Program-made: the position numbers and the translations under genes
Part shown: positions 7,860 through 15,650 of the stretch, piece by piece
How the letters are laid out: each line of letters starts with the position of its first letter
Numbering within the stretch: the stretch's first letter is position 1
The notes under the pieces: generated by a model
Seen by the model: only the letters and a program-made list of their open reading frames with translations
Told to the model about the DNA's origin: nothing
The model's database searches: none
From: a virus
Virus record (IMG/VR): IMGVR_UViG_3300028376_000033
Location: 1 to 25,595 of that record
Strand: one strand, 5' to 3'
DNA: 25,595 nt

Positions 7860-8694
7860 TGTGAAGGACACACTGCTGCCGCCCACGGCTACGCCGCTGG
7901 CAAAGGCGCTGGACATCTTGGAAGAGCGGCTGTTTCACCTGCCGGTCGAAATGATTTCCAAGAACCCGCAAACAGTCGATACCCGGCTGCTGGATCACTT
8001 GGCATGGGAAGAGTCTGTAGACGTTTGGGACTTTGACTGGCCAGACGATGTAAAAAGAAACGTGATCGCCGCAAGCGCGGAAGTGCACCGCTTTAAGGGC
8101 ACGCCGCACGCCATCAAATTAGCGCTCGCGGCCTTCGACGTAGATACGGAACTTCTTGAATGGTTCGAGCCGGAAGGCATTCAGGACGGACTTGAGCCGG
8201 GCAGCTTCCGCGTTACCGCTTATGCCGGGCGGTCGCTTTACGGTGACAGCGAAAACACCCTGAACAACCGAATGGTTGCGGCCATGAATGCCGTGTTGCG
8301 GCGTGTCGCGCCGGTTTCTCGAAAGCTGGTATTTCGGCTGGGCGAAAAGTTCCAGACCGCGACCTATATCCGCAATCGCGCAGGGCAATCCCAAAGGCAA
8401 GACGGCGCAACTGACGTTGATCCACGCCCGGAAGTGTCCAGCCCTATCGTGGCGGTCCGTACGGCCAATCGGGCATCGCTGCGGGCCGGGGGTGAACTTG
8501 AGGTACTGCCGCCAGAGGTTCGCGCCGCAACGGCAATGGTTGCCCGAACAGAAATCGCCGTAGCAGTTCGGAATTCGTGGTTGGCCAACCCCGCACCGAG
8601 GGACATCCAATCATCGGTCGGCCTGACCCTGCAGCCTGCTGCGCGGGCAGTCGCCCTTAGCAGCGAATTCCATGACATCCAGAGGAGGGCATAA
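7852..8694 (+). CDS. Tail protein I (P2 gpI-like), C-terminally extended
   Basis: 280 residues, longer than P2 gpI (176 aa). The N-terminal two thirds match: LLPPTATPLAKALDILEERL, then a DTRLLDHLAWEESVDVWD motif (the LA....VD.WD pattern of the family), and KGTPHAIKLALAAFDVDTEL leading to W. About 100 residues from roughly 180 on are extra and are rich in R, A, T and V. They may hold the fibre attachment or a baseplate-specific addition. It overlaps J upstream and is followed by the fibre gene after five bases, as in P2 (J-I-H). Confidence 0.85.
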   Translation: MFDVKDTLLPPTATPLAKALDILEERLFHLPVEMISKNPQTVDTRLLDHLAWEESVDVWDFDWPDDVKRNVIAASAEVHRFKGTPHAIKLALAAFDVDTELLEWFEPEGIQDGLEPGSFRVTAYAGRSLYGDSENTLNNRMVAAMNAVLRRVAPVSRKLVFRLGEKFQTATYIRNRAGQSQRQDGATDVDPRPEVSSPIVAVRTANRASLRAGGELEVLPPEVRAATAMVARTEIAVAVRNSWLANPAPRDIQSSVGLTLQPAARAVALSSEFHDIQRRA

Positions 8695-8699
8695 ACCCA

Positions 8700-9878
8700 A
8701 TGCCGATGACACTTCTAACAGACATTGCGGAATCAAAGATTACCGCAGCGGCGGGCAGCGGTTCGTCTGTCGCCATCACGCACATCGCCATTGGCGATGG
8801 CAACGGCTCCAACTATGCCCCCGGCCACGCGGCAACCGGACTTCGCCGGGAATTGGCGCGTCAGCCCATTGCCACCCGCCATATCGAGGGCGGCAACGCA
8901 TGGCGCGTGCGCGCGGAATTCGGCCCCGAAACACCCACGTTTGCCGTCCGCGAAATGGGCTTTTTCGACGCGGACGGTGACCTTATCGCCATCTGGGCCG
9001 GGAACGATGTCGAGCCGCGCCAGACCGGCGCAATCAGCTACCTTGTGGATCACGTCCTTAGCTTCACCCGCGTTGCCGATGGGCTGGTGATTGTAGATGC
9101 GCCCGACGATGAACTTGCGGAAGCGCGCGGCGATTTCGCGCGACTTGGTGCCCGGCTTGATGCGATGGACCAGTATGCGCCGGACGATCAGGTTGCGATG
9201 GCCACGGGCGTCCAGCAGGCAATGAACTTGGGCGGAGTGCTGCTGCGCGAAATGGACGTGCTTCGCCGCCGCGTTCTTGCGCAGGGCGTCGTTCTTATCA
9301 AGAACAAGTACGTCATTTCGGGCATGCAGCTTTCCAAAAGTGAAGTCCGGACGCTGCATCTGTCGCAGACCGGCACGGTTGCCTCCGGGCTTTCGAAGGC
9401 AAAACTGGATGGCCTGATCGTCGCCCTTGCGGATGATGACTATCACGTTTCCGTACCCACAAATGAGACTGCCGACCCGGTGCAATACTACGCGTATCTG
9501 GTGAAGGATGGCGCAGAATACCGTGTTCAGATTGGCCTTGCGGTTCCCGACGCGGCGCTTGCGCTTTACCGCATCGACATTCCCGCTGGCGACACGGCCA
9601 GCAATCTCGATGCCGTGACGCTGGTTGACCTTCGGGTCATCCATCCTGAAAACGCATGGACATCGGTCATTGAACCTTTTGCAAGCGTCGCCTTTCCCAA
9701 TGGCCTGCCATCGGCGGACTACGGCGTTCAGGTCGAAATCGAAGACGCAACCGACATCGCCGCCGTGGGTCACGTCAGCATCTATGACAAGGCGAATAAC
9801 GGCTTCAAGGTCCGCCAGTCGGGCAGCGCGGACAATGTTCGCCTGCGCTGGACCGTGCTCAATCCAAACTATCAATAA
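8700..9878 (+). CDS. Tail fibre protein (P2 gpH-type N-terminus)
   Basis: 392 residues, with an AGAGGAGGG ribosome site upstream. Residues 1 to about 150 are the phage tail-fibre N-terminal domain that docks on the baseplate: LLTDIAESKITAAAGSG, ITHIAIGDGNG, the L.ReLaRQPI segment, VREMGFFDADGDLIAIW and ISYLVDHVLSFTRVADG. The rest has a helical linker (LAEARGDFARLGARLDAM...) and beta-rich sequence. It is shorter than P2 gpH (669 aa) and shows no trimming into a large receptor-binding tip; that role may be played by the DGR variable protein two genes downstream (inference). Confidence 0.84.
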   Translation: MPMTLLTDIAESKITAAAGSGSSVAITHIAIGDGNGSNYAPGHAATGLRRELARQPIATRHIEGGNAWRVRAEFGPETPTFAVREMGFFDADGDLIAIWAGNDVEPRQTGAISYLVDHVLSFTRVADGLVIVDAPDDELAEARGDFARLGARLDAMDQYAPDDQVAMATGVQQAMNLGGVLLREMDVLRRRVLAQGVVLIKNKYVISGMQLSKSEVRTLHLSQTGTVASGLSKAKLDGLIVALADDDYHVSVPTNETADPVQYYAYLVKDGAEYRVQIGLAVPDAALALYRIDIPAGDTASNLDAVTLVDLRVIHPENAWTSVIEPFASVAFPNGLPSADYGVQVEIEDATDIAAVGHVSIYDKANNGFKVRQSGSADNVRLRWTVLNPNYQ

Positions 9879-9890
9879 GGGGGTGACCAA

Positions 9891-10244
9891 GTGAACGTCA
9901 CGCATATGAATGAGGGCCAGAAGGTCGCCTATTCCTTGGATGGAAGCATCCTGACCATCGGGGAAAGCGTCGTTTTGGATCTGGATGAAGAACAGGAAGA
10001 CGTGGAGCGCGCGGTCAGCATCTTCGCCGGGGATGACGGCACGCTATCCCAAGACGGCCACAACTACGCCGCCACAATCATCCTGCCGCCCCGCCGCTAC
10101 GCCGATGAAGAGGTGGATGAAATCATGGACGGCGAAGAGGTTGTTCAAATCGTGCCTGTCGCTCAACCGCTTCAGGTCGCCGCCGTAACCCTTCAGCTGT
10201 GGTCAATTGGGACGGCCCATGCAGAATCTGAAAACGAGGAGTAA
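9891..10244 (+). CDS. Small acidic protein between fibre and DGR target, function unknown
   Basis: 117 residues. The GTG at 9891 is chosen because TAAGGGGG lies seven bases upstream; an ATG five codons later is an alternative. The protein is acidic (DLDEEQEDVE, ADEEVDEIMDGEEV) with a strand-rich start and no membrane segment. It lies between the tail fibre and the variable protein, both spaced by only a few bases. This suggests a linker or assembly factor for the fibre-adhesin complex. I do not recognise a family. Confidence 0.6.
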   Translation: MNVTHMNEGQKVAYSLDGSILTIGESVVLDLDEEQEDVERAVSIFAGDDGTLSQDGHNYAATIILPPRRYADEEVDEIMDGEEVVQIVPVAQPLQVAAVTLQLWSIGTAHAESENEE

Positions 10245-10249
10245 CCACA

Positions 10250-11329
10250 ATGGCCATCACAATTTCCACGCCCGACGCGCTGCGCCAATCGGTCGAAGCG
10301 GCATCAGGGGGCGTCAACACCGTCCTTTACGACGCAAAGGGCTATCCTTCGGTGATGTGCATCATCCCGCGCTTCAATATCGAAGACATCGACCCGGCAA
10401 TGGGGGCGGGAACGCACCCCGCATTCATCGTCAACGGGGTGCCCAAGTCGGAAATTTTCGTGGGCAAGTTTCTGGCGCACATCCACGACAACCATGCCCT
10501 GTCGCTACCGGGCCAAGACCCATCGGCCAGCATCAATTTCGACACGGCGGACACGCGGTGCACCGCGAAAGGTCCGGGCTGGCATATGATGACCAACGCC
10601 GAATGGTCGGCGGTCGCTCTGTGGTGCTGGAAGAACGGGTTCATGCCGCGCGGCAATACCCAGTATGGCCGGGACCACGTGCAGCAGTACGAAACAGGGC
10701 GGCGGCAAGACGCTGGTGCGCCGGGGGATGCCAGCGGCACGGCACGAACGCTGACCGGCTCCGGCCCGGCCAGCTGGTTCCATGACAACAGCCCGGCAGG
10801 TATTGCGGATCTGACCGGGAACGTCTGGGAATGGCAGCGCGGTCTTCGATTGGTTGATGGAGAAATCCAAATCATTCCCGACAACGATGCGGCCGCGACC
10901 GATGCCGACCACTCCGACACCAGCCCGCTTTGGAAAGCCGTCATGCAAAACGGCACACTGGTCGCGCCCGGCACAGCAGACAGCCTGAAGTGGAACGCAA
11001 CCGGGGCGGACGGCACCGGAAACCCGGAGCTTGACACTGCCGTCACCAGTCAATCGGACGGGTCCACGTCCGCATCGGCCATGTACAAGGATGTCGCTGC
11101 TGCGGCAGGTGTCACGGTGCCGGAAATGCTGAATCTTCTGGGGCTTTTCCCGCACGATGCCACCATTGATCGGGGCCGCTTCTACATGCGCAACGAGGGC
11201 GAGCGTCTGCCGAGCCGTGGGGGCAACTGGGACGTCGGCAGCGGTGCTGGCGTGTTCGCCCGCAACCTGCACAACCCGCGTTCGAGCGTGAGCTCGAGCG
11301 TCGGCTTCCGGCCCGCTTTCGTAATCTGA
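10250..11329 (+). CDS. DGR variable protein: C-type-lectin/FGE-like adhesin
   Basis: 359 residues, with a GAGGAG site upstream. It belongs to the DGR target proteins with a formylglycine-generating-enzyme-like C-type lectin fold, such as Bordetella phage Mtd and its relatives. Seen: a central region with MTNAEWSAVALW and the FGE hallmark GNVWEW (190-195), and a C-terminus ending SRGGNWD... to GFRPAFVI, where residues 318-356 are encoded by the variable repeat. Residues at template adenines that now differ are D328, V329, G330, G332, H341, S346, S348, S349, S350 and V351; in this fold such positions form the ligand-binding face. It follows the tail fibre, so it is probably the receptor-binding tip. 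Stop codon and VR end lie within 13 bases. Confidence 0.93.
   Translation: MAITISTPDALRQSVEAASGGVNTVLYDAKGYPSVMCIIPRFNIEDIDPAMGAGTHPAFIVNGVPKSEIFVGKFLAHIHDNHALSLPGQDPSASINFDTADTRCTAKGPGWHMMTNAEWSAVALWCWKNGFMPRGNTQYGRDHVQQYETGRRQDAGAPGDASGTARTLTGSGPASWFHDNSPAGIADLTGNVWEWQRGLRLVDGEIQIIPDNDAAATDADHSDTSPLWKAVMQNGTLVAPGTADSLKWNATGADGTGNPELDTAVTSQSDGSTSASAMYKDVAAAAGVTVPEMLNLLGLFPHDATIDRGRFYMRNEGERLPSRGGNWDVGSGAGVFARNLHNPRSSVSSSVGFRPAFVI
11201..11317 (+). repeat. DGR variable repeat (VR)
   Basis: This 117-base stretch aligns without gaps to the template repeat 558 bases downstream. It matches at 103 positions. Of the 14 differences, 12 fall on adenines of the template (nine A to G, two A to T, one A to C) and two are T to G. 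The 3' part (GGCTTCCGGCCCGCT) is identical in both copies, as expected for the region where cDNA homing starts (IMH). All changes leave the reading frame intact. Confidence 0.96.
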
Positions 11330-11353
11330 AATCGGACCACCTGATTTCTGTTG

Positions 11354-11375
11354 GGTGCGGGCGATAGCCCGCGCC
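11354..11375. promoter_or_regulatory. DGR target-recognition hairpin/cruciform next to VR
   Basis: A perfect 6-bp stem (GCGGGC with GCCCGC) closes the four-base loop GATA; across one T-G mismatch the stem extends to nine pairs. It begins 24 bases past the VR stop codon and is absent after the TR. Bordetella phage BPP-1 and other DGRs carry a hairpin of this kind, with GRNA loops, just past the VR, needed for efficient homing. GATA fits GRNA. A weak terminator is a second reading, since CTTGCTTTT follows, but the T tract is broken. Confidence 0.75.
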
Positions 11376-11403
11376 TTGCTTTTGACTGCCGAAGGAGTTT
11401 GCG

Positions 11404-11760
11404 GTGGAAGACTTAAAAATCCGCCGCAAGTGCGAAGACATGATTGCATACGGCTATGTCGTGTTGCGGCAATTTCCCAAATCGGAACGTCACGTTTTGA
11501 GTCAGGAAATCCGGAACACGATGTGGTCGCTTCTTCGGTTAATTATCATCTGCAATAAGCGGTACTTCAAAAAGTCCACAATGCAGGATTTGGATGCGGA
11601 GCTTGATTTGCTGCGCAGTCAAATCCGGATGGCCCAAAAACTCGGATACCTTTCGTTTAAAAGCTATGAGGTATGGAGCCGTCATCTTGATGAAATTGGC
11701 CGCATGATTGGCGGTTGGTTTAAAAGCCTTCAGAAAGGGGGCGCAGGTAATGTGGCTTGA
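11404..11760 (+). CDS. avd: DGR accessory variability determinant (Avd)
   Basis: 118 residues from a GTG at 11404, after GAAGGAG. Avd is a small barrel-shaped pentamer of four-helix bundles that binds the RT and the template RNA; it is required for cDNA synthesis in BPP-1. Seen: four amphipathic helices, roughly 4-27, 31-55, 59-85 and 87-112, with a basic surface (KIRRKCED, KRYFKKS, KSYEVWSR) and the MIAYGYVVLRQFPKSER start typical of the family. The last codon group and stop overlap the start of the TR. Base use is more AT-rich than in the neighbouring tail genes (ATT, TTA and AAA codons), suggesting separate ancestry of the cassette. Confidence 0.88.
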   Translation: MEDLKIRRKCEDMIAYGYVVLRQFPKSERHVLSQEIRNTMWSLLRLIIICNKRYFKKSTMQDLDAELDLLRSQIRMAQKLGYLSFKSYEVWSRHLDEIGRMIGGWFKSLQKGGAGNVA

Positions 11761-11899
11761 GCGTCTGCCGATCCGTGGGGGCAACTGGAACAACGACAGC
11801 AATGCTGGCGTGTTCGCCCTCAACCTGAACAACCCGCGTTCGAACGTGAACACGAACATCGGCTTCCGGCCCGCTCTCGGGAAATGCCAGAAGGTGTAG
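11750..11899 (+). CDS. Possible small reading frame through the TR
   Basis: An ATG inside the last codons of avd opens a 49-residue frame which translates the TR in the same frame as the VR (MWLERLPIRGGNW..., ending ...FRPALGKCQKV). AAAGGGGG lies nine bases upstream. Translation would give an unmutated copy of the lectin C-terminus. It may simply reflect that the TR descends from a coding repeat. Low confidence as a real gene. Confidence 0.2.
   Translation: MWLERLPIRGGNWNNDSNAGVFALNLNNPRSNVNTNIGFRPALGKCQKV
11759..11875 (+). repeat. DGR template repeat (TR)
   Basis: The donor copy for mutagenic homing. It begins at the avd stop codon and holds 26 adenines, 20 of them in ten AAC/AAT codons (11783, 11789, 11792, 11801, 11822, 11828, 11831, 11843, 11849, 11855). 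Adenine mutation of AAY codons can give about fifteen amino acids and never a stop, the usual design of DGR templates. Seven of these ten codons differ in the present VR. After 11875 the two copies diverge (CTCGGG against TTCGTA). Confidence 0.96.
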
Positions 11900-12041
11900 C
11901 CCTACCGGGGTTTCATCCAGCGCACCCTCGAAAGGACCCGCGCTCCTCGGCCAAGTGCCGAAATATATAAACAGACCGGGGTGGAACAGTAGCCGAACCT
12001 AGGCGGCGAACCTTCGCCCCGGTCGCCCATGGAAAAAAACA
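11876..12041 (+). ncRNA. DGR RNA spacer downstream of TR, with long-range stem
   Basis: 166 bases lie between TR and RT with no supported gene. In BPP-1 the equivalent spacer is part of the DGR RNA, binds RT-Avd and supplies the self-priming site for cDNA. Here GACCGGGG (11974-11981) and CCCCGGTC (12017-12024) form a perfect 8-bp stem around a 35-base loop. Inside it GGCGAA and TTCGCC (12005-12018) form an alternative small hairpin. An AT-rich stretch (AATATATAA) lies at 11961-11970. The stem is visible; its role is inferred from other DGRs. Confidence 0.6.
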
Positions 12042-13112
12042 ATGGCAAAAACCTACACCGGCCTGTTCGAGCAGTTCACAACATTCGAAGCGCTTCACCG
12101 GGCATATGGTCGGGTCGTAAAGGGGCGCAGACACCAGCTGGATGTCATACGCTTTGAAGCCGATCTGGAATCCAACCTGATAGACATTCAGAACAGCCTG
12201 CTGTGGAAGACTTACCGCACCGGACCCTACCGGAATTTCAAAGTGTTCGAGCCAAAGGAACGGGATATTTCCGCGCTTCCGATAAAGGACAGGATAGTCC
12301 AGCATGCGCTAGTCGAGACCATTGACCCGATTTGGTCGCCGCGCTTCATTCATGATACCTACGCCTGCCGACCGGGAAAGGGTGCCCACGCTGGCGCGGA
12401 CCGCGCGCAGATGTTCCTGCGGGACGCCTTGCGCGAAAGCGAAGTCATCTACGTGCTGAAGGCGGATATTTCGAAGTACTTTCCTTCGATCTGCCATGAC
12501 GTTCTGAAGCGCCTGCTGCGCCGCCGCATAGCCTGCAAGGACACCTTGCGGGTCATCGACAACATCATTGATAGCTCCTTGGAGCCGGGCGACCCCATGC
12601 CGCGCGGTATACCGATTGGCAACCTGACATCGCAACTGTTTGCGAACATCTACCTTCATGAACTGGATGAATTCGTGAAGTTCGACCTGCGCGAAGGGCG
12701 CTACCTGCGATATATGGATGACTTCGCAGTGGTCGGTAGTGACAAAGACCATCTGCACCGGGTCCGCCGCGACATTGAAGACTTCCTGCACGCAAGGCTT
12801 GGGCTGCGGTGCAATAGCAAAACCCAAGTTTTTCCGGTGTCGAAGGCGAACGGTCGAGCGCTGGATTTCTTGGGGTATCGGATATGGCCGACGCACCGGA
12901 AAATCCGAAAGGACAGCGCCAGCCGCATGCGCCGCAAGATGAAGCGCATGGCGCGCCTTTACCACGAAGGGAAGATGACCCTGAAAGAGGTCGATCAGGT
13001 CATCATGAGTTGGATCGGCCATGCGGGGCACGCAAACACCTACCGGCTTCGAACCCGCGTTTTGGGAGATGTGCCGTTCATCCCGCCACCCATGCACCTG
13101 CGAAAGCGGTGA
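12042..13112 (+). CDS. DGR reverse transcriptase
   Basis: 356 residues. It copies TR RNA into cDNA with errors at adenines. Seen: the finger region (LLWKTYRTGPYRNFKVFEPKE.. then a DRIVQHALV motif at 83-91), palm motif with Asp142 (LKADISKYFPSI), the RT motif IGNLTSQ at 192-198, and the catalytic YMDD box at 224-227 followed by FAVVG. The SQ ending of the GxxxSQ motif (instead of SP, as in retroviral and group II intron RTs) is the DGR hallmark. The C-terminal thumb is basic (SRMRRKMKRMARLYHEGK). There is no maturase or endonuclease domain. The ATG has only a weak ribosome site (GGAAAAAAAC), so expression may be low. Confidence 0.95.
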   Translation: MAKTYTGLFEQFTTFEALHRAYGRVVKGRRHQLDVIRFEADLESNLIDIQNSLLWKTYRTGPYRNFKVFEPKERDISALPIKDRIVQHALVETIDPIWSPRFIHDTYACRPGKGAHAGADRAQMFLRDALRESEVIYVLKADISKYFPSICHDVLKRLLRRRIACKDTLRVIDNIIDSSLEPGDPMPRGIPIGNLTSQLFANIYLHELDEFVKFDLREGRYLRYMDDFAVVGSDKDHLHRVRRDIEDFLHARLGLRCNSKTQVFPVSKANGRALDFLGYRIWPTHRKIRKDSASRMRRKMKRMARLYHEGKMTLKEVDQVIMSWIGHAGHANTYRLRTRVLGDVPFIPPPMHLRKR

Positions 13113-13135
13113 CGCTACAAAGGAAAGGGCCTGCC

Positions 13136-13480
13136 ATGTACGAATATAAAGCCTGCGTTGTCGATGTGTATGACGCGGACACCATCACGGTCGATGTGGA
13201 TCTGGGATTTAACGCTTGGCTGCGCGGGGTGAAGGTTCGACTGACCGGCATAGATGCCCCTGAAGTTCGCGGCGAAGAACGTCCCGATGGGCTGGTTTCG
13301 CGCGATTGGCTGCGGGCTGAAATCCTTGGCCAAGACATCGTGATGAAGACCACGAAAGATGGCACCGGCAAGGGAAAATATGGCCGATGGCTGGCCGAAC
13401 TTTTCCGCGCCGATGGCGACGTTATCAGCATCAATCAAGAGCTGGTGACCAAAGGCTTGGCGGCACCGGCAAGCTATTGA
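13136..13480 (+). CDS. Staphylococcal-nuclease-like (SNase/TNase) protein
   Basis: 114 residues from the ATG at 13136, which follows AAAGGAAAG; the frame is open farther upstream only inside the RT gene. The SNase OB-fold is recognisable: YDADTITVDVDL, then VRLTGIDAPE with Arg35, Asp40 and Glu43, and GKYGRWLAELF with Arg84. These correspond to R35, D40, E43 and R87 of S. aureus nuclease, so the active site looks intact. There is no signal peptide, so it acts in the cytoplasm. It lies 23 bases after the RT and before a terminator, so it may be carried with the DGR, or be an independent phage nuclease. Confidence 0.85.
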   Translation: MYEYKACVVDVYDADTITVDVDLGFNAWLRGVKVRLTGIDAPEVRGEERPDGLVSRDWLRAEILGQDIVMKTTKDGTGKGKYGRWLAELFRADGDVISINQELVTKGLAAPASY

Positions 13481-13572: not shown

Positions 13573-14751
13573 ATGAGCTTCCTTAGCTTCCACCACGGCA
13601 CCCGCCTTAAGGAGTCCAATGAAACCCCGGTGCTGGTGCAAATCGCGCAGACTGCGGTTGTTGGCCTCATGGGCACCGCGCCCGATGCGGACCCCGTGAA
13701 ATTCCCCATCAACACGCCCGTTCTTCTGAAGGGCAACCCCGCCGCCGCTGCGGACCTTGGCGACACCGGCACCCTGAAAGATGCGGTCGATGATGTGTTT
13801 GACCAGATCGGTGCTTACACCATCGTTATCCGCGTCGAAGAGGGTTTGGATGCCGCTGAAACCATGTCCAATCTGGTGGGTGATGCCACGCAACTGACCG
13901 GCGTGCACGCGCTGAAAAAGGCGGAAGCGCAGCTTGGCATCAAGCCCCGCCTGATCGCCATTCCGGGCTTCACCAGTGGCGACGGCCAGACTGCGAACCC
14001 GGTGGTGGCGGAGCTGGTCGGTGTGCTGGATGAACTGAAGGCCGTGGCTTTTGTCGATGGCCCCGACACAACCGATGCGGATGCCCTCGCGTACCGCGAA
14101 CTGATCGGGTCGCAGCGCGTCTATATCGTGGACCCGAAGGTGCTGGTCTGGGATACCACCACCAGCGCCTATGTCGCCCGTCCGGCATCGGCACGCTTTG
14201 CCGGGGTTCAGGCTCGCGTCGATACCAATCTGGGCTTCTGGCATTCGCTGTCGAACAAGCCCATCAACGGGATTGGTGGCGCATCGCGCACCGTGACCTA
14301 CGGCCTTCAGGCGAACTACCTGAACGAAAACCATGTCGGAACAATCATCAACATGGGGTCCGGGTTCATCACGTGGGGCAACCGTGCCGCGACCGAAGAT
14401 GACCTTTGGGTGTTCCTGTCGGTGCGCCGGACGGCGGACTTCATCAATGAGGCTATCGAAAAGGCGTATCTGGAATTCGTGGATAAGCCGTTTTCGGCGG
14501 CGAACCTGAAGTTCATGCTGGAAAGCGGCAACGCGGCCATGCGGACCTTCAAGGCGTCCGGGGCCATTCTGGGCGGTCGCGTCTGGATTAACGAAACCCT
14601 GAACGAACCGACCGAAATGGCGGCGGGCAAGATCACGCTGTCCATGGAGTTCGAGCCGCCCGCGCCGATGGAAGACATCCGTTTCGTCGCGCACCGCAAC
14701 ATCCAGTACTATCTGGAACTGACCAAGGAAGCACTGCAGGCGGCGGCATAA
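13573..14751 (+). CDS. Tail sheath protein (P2 gpFI-like)
   Basis: 392 residues, close to P2 FI (396). The ATG at 13573 follows AAAGGAGACGAAG. The protein forms the contractile sheath. Signature segments: FHHGTRLKESNE near the start (P2-type sheaths begin with HG..), VVGLMGTAPDAD, GAYTIVIRVEEG, KPRLIAIPGFT, INGIGGASRTV, the helical end region GNRAATEDDLWVFLSVRRT (WG.R......W.F..vRR motif), and a C-terminal handshake region (ITLSMEFEPPAPMEDI, then YYLEL). Its presence shows the virion is a myovirus. Confidence 0.93.
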   Translation: MSFLSFHHGTRLKESNETPVLVQIAQTAVVGLMGTAPDADPVKFPINTPVLLKGNPAAAADLGDTGTLKDAVDDVFDQIGAYTIVIRVEEGLDAAETMSNLVGDATQLTGVHALKKAEAQLGIKPRLIAIPGFTSGDGQTANPVVAELVGVLDELKAVAFVDGPDTTDADALAYRELIGSQRVYIVDPKVLVWDTTTSAYVARPASARFAGVQARVDTNLGFWHSLSNKPINGIGGASRTVTYGLQANYLNENHVGTIINMGSGFITWGNRAATEDDLWVFLSVRRTADFINEAIEKAYLEFVDKPFSAANLKFMLESGNAAMRTFKASGAILGGRVWINETLNEPTEMAAGKITLSMEFEPPAPMEDIRFVAHRNIQYYLELTKEALQAAA

Positions 14752-14834: not shown

Positions 14835-15341
14835 ATGAAATCCACCCCCGCTTACATCCTGCGGAACTGCGCCCTGTGGGCCAATGAAGACGTGAAGGTC
14901 GGTCAGTTTTCCGAAGTCACGATTTCGATGCCGAAGGAGAAGACCGAAGGTTTCCGCAACGGCGGCATGATCAAGGAGCGCAAGGCCAGCATGGGCTATG
15001 AACATGATGATCTTGAATTCACCCTGACCGCCTTCGACCCGGCCACCCTGAAGCTGATGACCGGCAAGCCCGGCACCGAAAACGCCTTCATGGTTACCGG
15101 CGCGCATGTCGATGAAGACGGCGAGACGCACAGCGCCGTCTATTACGTGCGCGGTCGCCTCGTTGCTGGCGATGCCGGGAACTGGAAGCCCGGCGACATG
15201 GCCGAACTGAAGTGCACCGTGGTGCAGAACTACGCCAAGCTGGAAATCGACGGGTCGGAAATCTTCGAGATTGACGATTTCGAATTTTCGGCGGGCGGTG
15301 TCAGCCAGACCGGCGACATTCGCGCCGCGCTGCTGCTGTAA
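14835..15341 (+). CDS. Tail tube protein (P2 gpFII-like)
   Basis: 168 residues (P2 FII is 172). It stacks as rings inside the sheath. Seen: PAYILRNCALWANEDV with the N-terminal family pattern (p..l.n.n.f.dG...G), VTISMPKEKTEGFRNGGM, EHDDLEFTLTAFDP and the KCTVVQNYAKLEIDGSE segment typical of FII proteins, where the tube interface strands lie. A strong AAGGAG site lies upstream. It is followed by the tail chaperone gene after nine bases. Confidence 0.92.
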   Translation: MKSTPAYILRNCALWANEDVKVGQFSEVTISMPKEKTEGFRNGGMIKERKASMGYEHDDLEFTLTAFDPATLKLMTGKPGTENAFMVTGAHVDEDGETHSAVYYVRGRLVAGDAGNWKPGDMAELKCTVVQNYAKLEIDGSEIFEIDDFEFSAGGVSQTGDIRAALLL

Positions 15342-15350
15342 GGGGGCATT

Positions 15351-15650
15351 ATGGACTATCCCATTGAAGTGACCCTTCAGCGCCCCGTCACCGTGGACGG
15401 CAAGACCATCGACAAGCTGGTGTTCGATGAACCCGATCTTGGCACCAGCATCGCGGTCGAAGAGGCAAAATCGCCCGCAGAACAGACCGCCGTCCTGCTG
15501 GCGGGCATGGCGGGCGTGGATCGGTCGGTGATGCTGAAGGTCAAGGAAAGCGACTTCCGCGAGATCGGTAAGCGCGTTCTGACTCCCTACCAAGCGCACG
15601 TGGCCGCGCAGCAGGAATCCGCTTCGGGAAACGGAAAACCGGCAAAGTAG
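15351..15650 (+). CDS. Tail assembly chaperone E (P2 gpE-like), unshifted form
   Basis: 99 residues; P2 gpE is 91. The tail assembly chaperones bind the tape measure before the tube is laid around it. Seen: IEVTLQRPVTVDGKTIDKLV, the paired-strand start typical of the family, and a helical region (VEEAKSPAEQTAVLLAGMAG then LTPYQAHVAAQQ). The start follows AAGGGGGC. The last ten codons hold a frameshift site described separately. Confidence 0.82.
   Translation: MDYPIEVTLQRPVTVDGKTIDKLVFDEPDLGTSIAVEEAKSPAEQTAVLLAGMAGVDRSVMLKVKESDFREIGKRVLTPYQAHVAAQQESASGNGKPAK

Follow-up and report, generated by a model that had tools for sequence, protein, structure and literature searches.

The locus at positions 10250-13112 of the window (a linear IMG/VR record, whose 25,595 bases are the whole stretch analysed here) raises the question of whether it holds a complete diversity-generating retroelement (DGR), which protein such an element would vary, whether it has acted recently, and whether its place among the tail genes has a counterpart in described phages. 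The best explanation overall, which we hold with high confidence, is that this is a complete, probably recently active DGR of a temperate, contractile-tailed, VHML-like phage, mutating a probable receptor-binding protein at the fibre tip.

The DGR is complete. Its parts, namely a variable protein with its repeat (VR), a hairpin, avd, a template repeat (TR), a spacer and a reverse transcriptase (RT), were found in the order given by the original prediction:

10250..11329, + strand: DGR target (variable protein), 359 aa, with a predicted C-type lectin / FGE-sulfatase-like fold of the TaqVP family
11201..11321, + strand: variable repeat (VR), 88% identical to the TR, coding for the C-terminal residues 318-357
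11353..11376, + strand: hairpin/cruciform downstream of the VR, with a GATA loop (fits GRNA) and a G+C-rich stem of 9-10 pairs
11404..11760, + strand: avd, accessory variability determinant (NCBIfam NF033474 DGR-Avd equivalog; Pfam bAvd; phrog_3206)
11759..11879, + strand: template repeat (TR), with 26 adenines and ten AAY codons
11874..12024, + strand: structured spacer RNA between TR and RT (Rfam RF02921 RT-14)
12042..13112, + strand: DGR reverse transcriptase, 356 aa, with IGNLTSQ and YMDD motifs (phrog_1423)

We observed in this locus adenine-centred differences between TR and VR, an RT of the DGR clade, Avd, an IMH-like end and a hairpin 3' of the VR, and a structured spacer. The avd product scored 127.3 bits with the NCBIfam model NF033474 (cut-off 80), which settled its identity; a phmmer search of Avd against the PDB gave no match. 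The VR ends with a G+C-rich, IMH-like stretch, and the hairpin that follows has a DNA folding z-score of -5.2. A hairpin with a four-base loop was located after 74 related VRs, and in 72 of them the loop was GRNA, the published consensus for phage DGRs (PMC3240598). The spacer RNA scored 50.6 bits in cmscan against the Rfam gathering threshold of 48.1, and its helices showed compensatory changes at 16 of 23 consensus pairs (23 sequences). The TR is the same, letter for letter, in the window and in two further contigs of the same phage, L002 and L122. A count of its AAY codons gave the ten that had been predicted, and the template would in principle allow about 2.4e15 protein variants. The first 11 positions of L002 diverge from the window just upstream of position 11743, at the end of the contig and just upstream of the TR, probably as an assembly end effect. 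In another related contig, L075, we observed one template and two apparent VRs (8381-8524, 9228-9327 and 15280-15423), a possible two-target DGR.

The TR and VR of the window differ at 15 of 121 positions, and 12 of these fall on the 26 template adenines (hypergeometric p=2.6e-7). The expectation of changes at template adenines therefore held for most of the mismatches, but three of the 15 lie elsewhere: two T>G and one C>T near the 3' end. The adenine pattern is not a matter of chance, because it is repeated in 96 distinct TR/VR pairs from the window and its relatives, with adenines changed in 50% of cases and the other bases in 0.3-1.6%. The commonest change at an adenine in these pairs was A>G.

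In the same 96 pairs, changes hit template T in 1.55% of cases, against a rate of about 0.35% at C or G (Fisher p about 3e-7). Most T changes, 20 of 28, put a G in the VR (T>G), which parallels A>G as the commonest change at adenine; the two T>G sites of the window are 11214 and 11262, while L122 adds one T change (T>C). The papers searched made no mention of a T>G bias in VRs. It is conceivable, and we suggest it tentatively, that the RTs of this DGR lineage have template uridines as a secondary target, with misincorporation of dC leading to T-to-G changes in the VR. If so, variation would reach codons without adenine and at times framework positions. Residue 338 (position 11262) is arginine in the VR of the window, via T>G, and leucine in 47 of 49 aligned relatives; this L338R change could possibly be harmful or an assembly error.

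By analogy with Bordetella phage BPP-1, the RNA of the TR and spacer would be copied by an RT-Avd complex with errors at adenines, and the resulting cDNA would replace the VR of the adjoining target gene. The replacement would be guided by the nearly identical, IMH-like 3' end and by the GRNA-loop hairpin, the latter in the role known from BPP-1. Up to 16 C-terminal residues of the lectin-fold protein would be altered in this way.

The genes next to the DGR are as follows:

8700..9878, + strand: tail-fibre N-terminal-domain protein (Pfam Phage_tail_fib PF12571, E 1.7e-16)
9891..10244, + strand: small conserved gene, phrog_8734, between fibre and target
13136..13480, + strand: SNase-fold nuclease-like gene between RT and sheath
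13573..14751, + strand: contractile tail sheath gene (phrog_23, E 6e-93; Pfam Phage_sheath_1)

Upstream, the fibre N-terminal-domain gene is preceded by gpV, PAAR, gpW, gpJ and gpI, and the upstream part of the window also holds head genes, namely a portal of the lambda family, a ClpP-type protease, a decoration protein (D) and a capsid protein (E). Downstream, the nuclease-like gene and the sheath are followed by tube, tape measure, U, X and D, after which an endolysin and, on the - strand, an integrase are encoded. The presence of sheath, tube and tape measure genes together with an integrase suggests, therefore, that the phage is probably temperate and contractile-tailed. Baseplate and fibre genes before the target, a contractile tail and a lambda-like head had all been named beforehand, and we recovered each of them. 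The DGR was correctly placed between baseplate/fibre genes and the sheath; the RT and the sheath are, however, separated by the nuclease-like gene. This gene matches Pfam SNase (E 1.9e-8, in a longer ORF at 12884-13480) and phrog_452 endonuclease (E 9.6e-24). Among the loci compared, a nuclease-like gene at the junction of RT and sheath was seen elsewhere only in a prophage of Antarcticimicrobium sediminis and in L002. The phrog_8734 gene travels with the target in several relatives.

The target is a full-length homologue of the crystallised TaqVP, the variable protein of a Thermus aquaticus prophage (5vf4; phmmer E 2.6e-109), and matches phrog_2889 with E 6e-146. Its AlphaFold model (pLDDT 94) gave a Foldseek TM of 0.94-0.96 to 5vf4, with weaker superposition on the Treponema variable protein and on Mtd. 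Homology and the predicted model together identify it as a C-type lectin-fold DGR variable protein of the TaqVP type with a C-terminal VR, in agreement with the lectin fold proposed earlier. As in TaqVP, the VR lies at the extreme C-terminus, and the two proteins are about 52% identical in the structural alignment; the host and phage background is different, and the VR residues differ as expected. Codons with template adenines correspond to residues 318-351 of the target. Between the variable codons stand nearly invariant framework residues (R323, G324, G325, W327, G334, R344 and G352), a pattern of conservation that appears as expected of a lectin scaffold. Judging from the alignment with TaqVP, the variable residues would be exposed at a putative binding face.

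Gene position and precedent suggest that the target is located at the tail tip and binds the receptor: most likely it is the receptor-binding tip of a tail fibre whose N-terminal domain is encoded apart, and the product of 8700..9878 likely attaches it to the tail. The precedent comes from the Pseudoalteromonas phages ACA1 and ACA2, P2-like phages in which a homologous gene, the DGR-driven antireceptor, adjoins a separate fibre N-terminal protein (PMC10612066), an arrangement that matches the pair formed by the 8700-9878 gene and the target. A genuine DGR could instead act on some other virion or cell-surface protein or on an FGE-like enzyme, as the Pfam label of the fold (FGE-sulfatase) and the lack of an assigned function for phrog_2889 might suggest. 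We consider this improbable. The target gene comes directly after the fibre gene (here with the small phrog_8734 gene between), as it does in many relatives, and some of the closest viral models carry the name tail collar fibre. With respect to an enzyme, the authors of the TaqVP study judged FGE activity unlikely, since catalytic residues and the substrate site are missing.

Contig L122 comes from another metagenome and represents the same phage, sharing 99.58% identity with the window across 10,435 bases. As many as 14 of their 44 differences fall inside the 121-bp VR, about 45-fold above the rate elsewhere (Fisher p=3e-17), with 11 of the 14 at template adenines and three at other positions; both sequences are metagenome assemblies, so that either VR may be the consensus of a mixed population. 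A related pair of phages, L012 and L013, differs at 22 positions in 19.2 kb; the VR holds 15 of these, all 15 at template adenines. L002 (99.85% identical to the window) starts downstream of the VR and so yields a TR and no VR. For the window and the A. sediminis prophage, acceleration of the VR was not demonstrable (24 VR differences against a background of about 19%); since their TRs differ, that pair is uninformative on this point, and L122, which belongs to the same species as the window, took its place in the comparison.

The DGR probably acted recently, because VR differences pile up between near-identical contigs with an identical TR. Such VR-concentrated, adenine-specific differences in natural sequences, as opposed to an experiment, are what recent mutagenic homing should leave, and the expectation that the VR would vary among sampled genomes was borne out within a single phage species. 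On the other hand, the parts of the DGR could be intact in sequence with diversification ended and the VR difference old. The framework change L338R in the VR of the window would fit such decay, as would the fact that two haplotypes only were seen for this species. We nevertheless find it very unlikely: the frames of RT, avd and target are open and conserved, and a VR divergence about 45 times that of the rest of 10.4 kb stands beside an identical TR.

The RT carries the SQ-type motif and the YMDD that were noticed at the outset, the former as IGNLTSQ. Its best solved relative is the bRT structure of BPP-1 (8ub7, E 2.9e-67). In a maximum-likelihood tree of 52 RTs, the RT of the window grouped with BPP-1 Brt and the VHML RT inside the DGR group (support 95/93). 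Group II intron and retron RTs from genomes related to A. sediminis served as the outgroup and fell apart from the DGR group, some of their branches being long. Assigning the RT to group II introns or retrons, with the repeat as a coincidence, would draw on partial matches to such models, all below curated cut-offs; this reading can practically be dismissed, as it is contradicted by the tree, Avd, the Rfam spacer and the adenine bias. PADLOC also reported matches to DRT-family enzymes; this assignment was rejected on the tree, the matches reflecting general RT similarity.

The analogy with BPP-1 drawn originally was upheld by the RT tree and by a common layout: target with VR, avd, TR, a spacer of about 140-160 nt and RT, together with a GRNA hairpin. 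BPP-1 is, however, another type of phage with Mtd as its target, while the target in the window belongs to the TaqVP type, with a fold that resembles Mtd only distantly.

The original prediction could match the arrangement to no described phage; in fact, two Vibrio phages of the genus Vhmlvirus, VHML and VP58.5, have it. As in the window, gpW, J and I are followed by a lectin-fold target of the DUF323/FGE type, avd, TR and RT, and after the DGR the sheath, tube, tape, U, X and D come in the same order. Their capsid and tail genes are related to those of the window, and all their TR/VR differences are at adenines (7 in VHML, 12 in VP58.5). The RT is 40-49% and the target 43-44% identical to those of the window, and the host group is different. 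VHML and VP58.5 have one small gene between RT and sheath; in the window, unlike in these phages, the RT is followed by the nuclease-like gene and the target is preceded by an additional small gene. VHML itself has been described as combining a P2-like tail with remaining genes similar to lambda and N15 (PMC10612066); our comparison with the two Vibrio phages excludes replication genes, the window being a genome fragment.

With its P2-like tail genes, its E-type capsid and a DGR that lies between the fibre and sheath genes, the phage is organised like VHML yet falls outside the genus Vhmlvirus: its proteins are about 25-50% identical to those of the genus, and none of 50,697 phage records matched the DNA of the window in a megablast search.

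The prophage of A. sediminis S4J41 (NZ_SMFP01000022.1), a strain isolated from sediment, has the gene order of the window, including the nuclease-like gene, as far as the contig was read. Its RT and avd are each 95% and its target 87% identical to those of the window, and the DNA that the two share is about 81% identical; the prophage differs in TR and VR, and its tube protein is only 49% identical. Among relatives whose hosts are named, prophages of Antarcticimicrobium, Pseudoruegeria and Rhodobacter come nearest, which is why we infer a host that is probably in Rhodobacterales. In a family-level search around A. sediminis, avd was found in one of 198 sampled genomes, that of A. sediminis only; DGRs with this Avd therefore appear to be rare in the family.

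ACA1 and ACA2 differ from the window in having a P2-like genome, a TR translated as an extension of the RT, and an RT that is 48.5% identical. The VRs of these near-identical phages differ from each other (PMC10612066).

Cassettes with an RT 82-86% identical to that of the window were observed beside very different tail genes (L004-L010 and L083-L085). Since close relatives of the DGR, such as those in L004-L010, are paired with quite different tail genes, it appears that cassette and target travel together from one tail module to another. In L006 the RT is 86% but the target only 42% identical; hence, the target may be exchanged independently of RT/avd.

The arrangement is thus not new but a further DGR in a VHML-like setting, and the understanding of DGRs is unchanged by it. 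The phage is of marine type and carries a complete DGR of a well-known kind. The value of the locus is that an unclassified temperate phage offers a DGR with all its parts cleanly present, and that a named strain with a genome sequence, A. sediminis S4J41, carries a related prophage. Natural sequences add evidence that a probable receptor-binding protein is changing against an otherwise static genome, and the locus would be usable as a non-Bordetella, TaqVP-type model for the effects of DGRs on phage adsorption.
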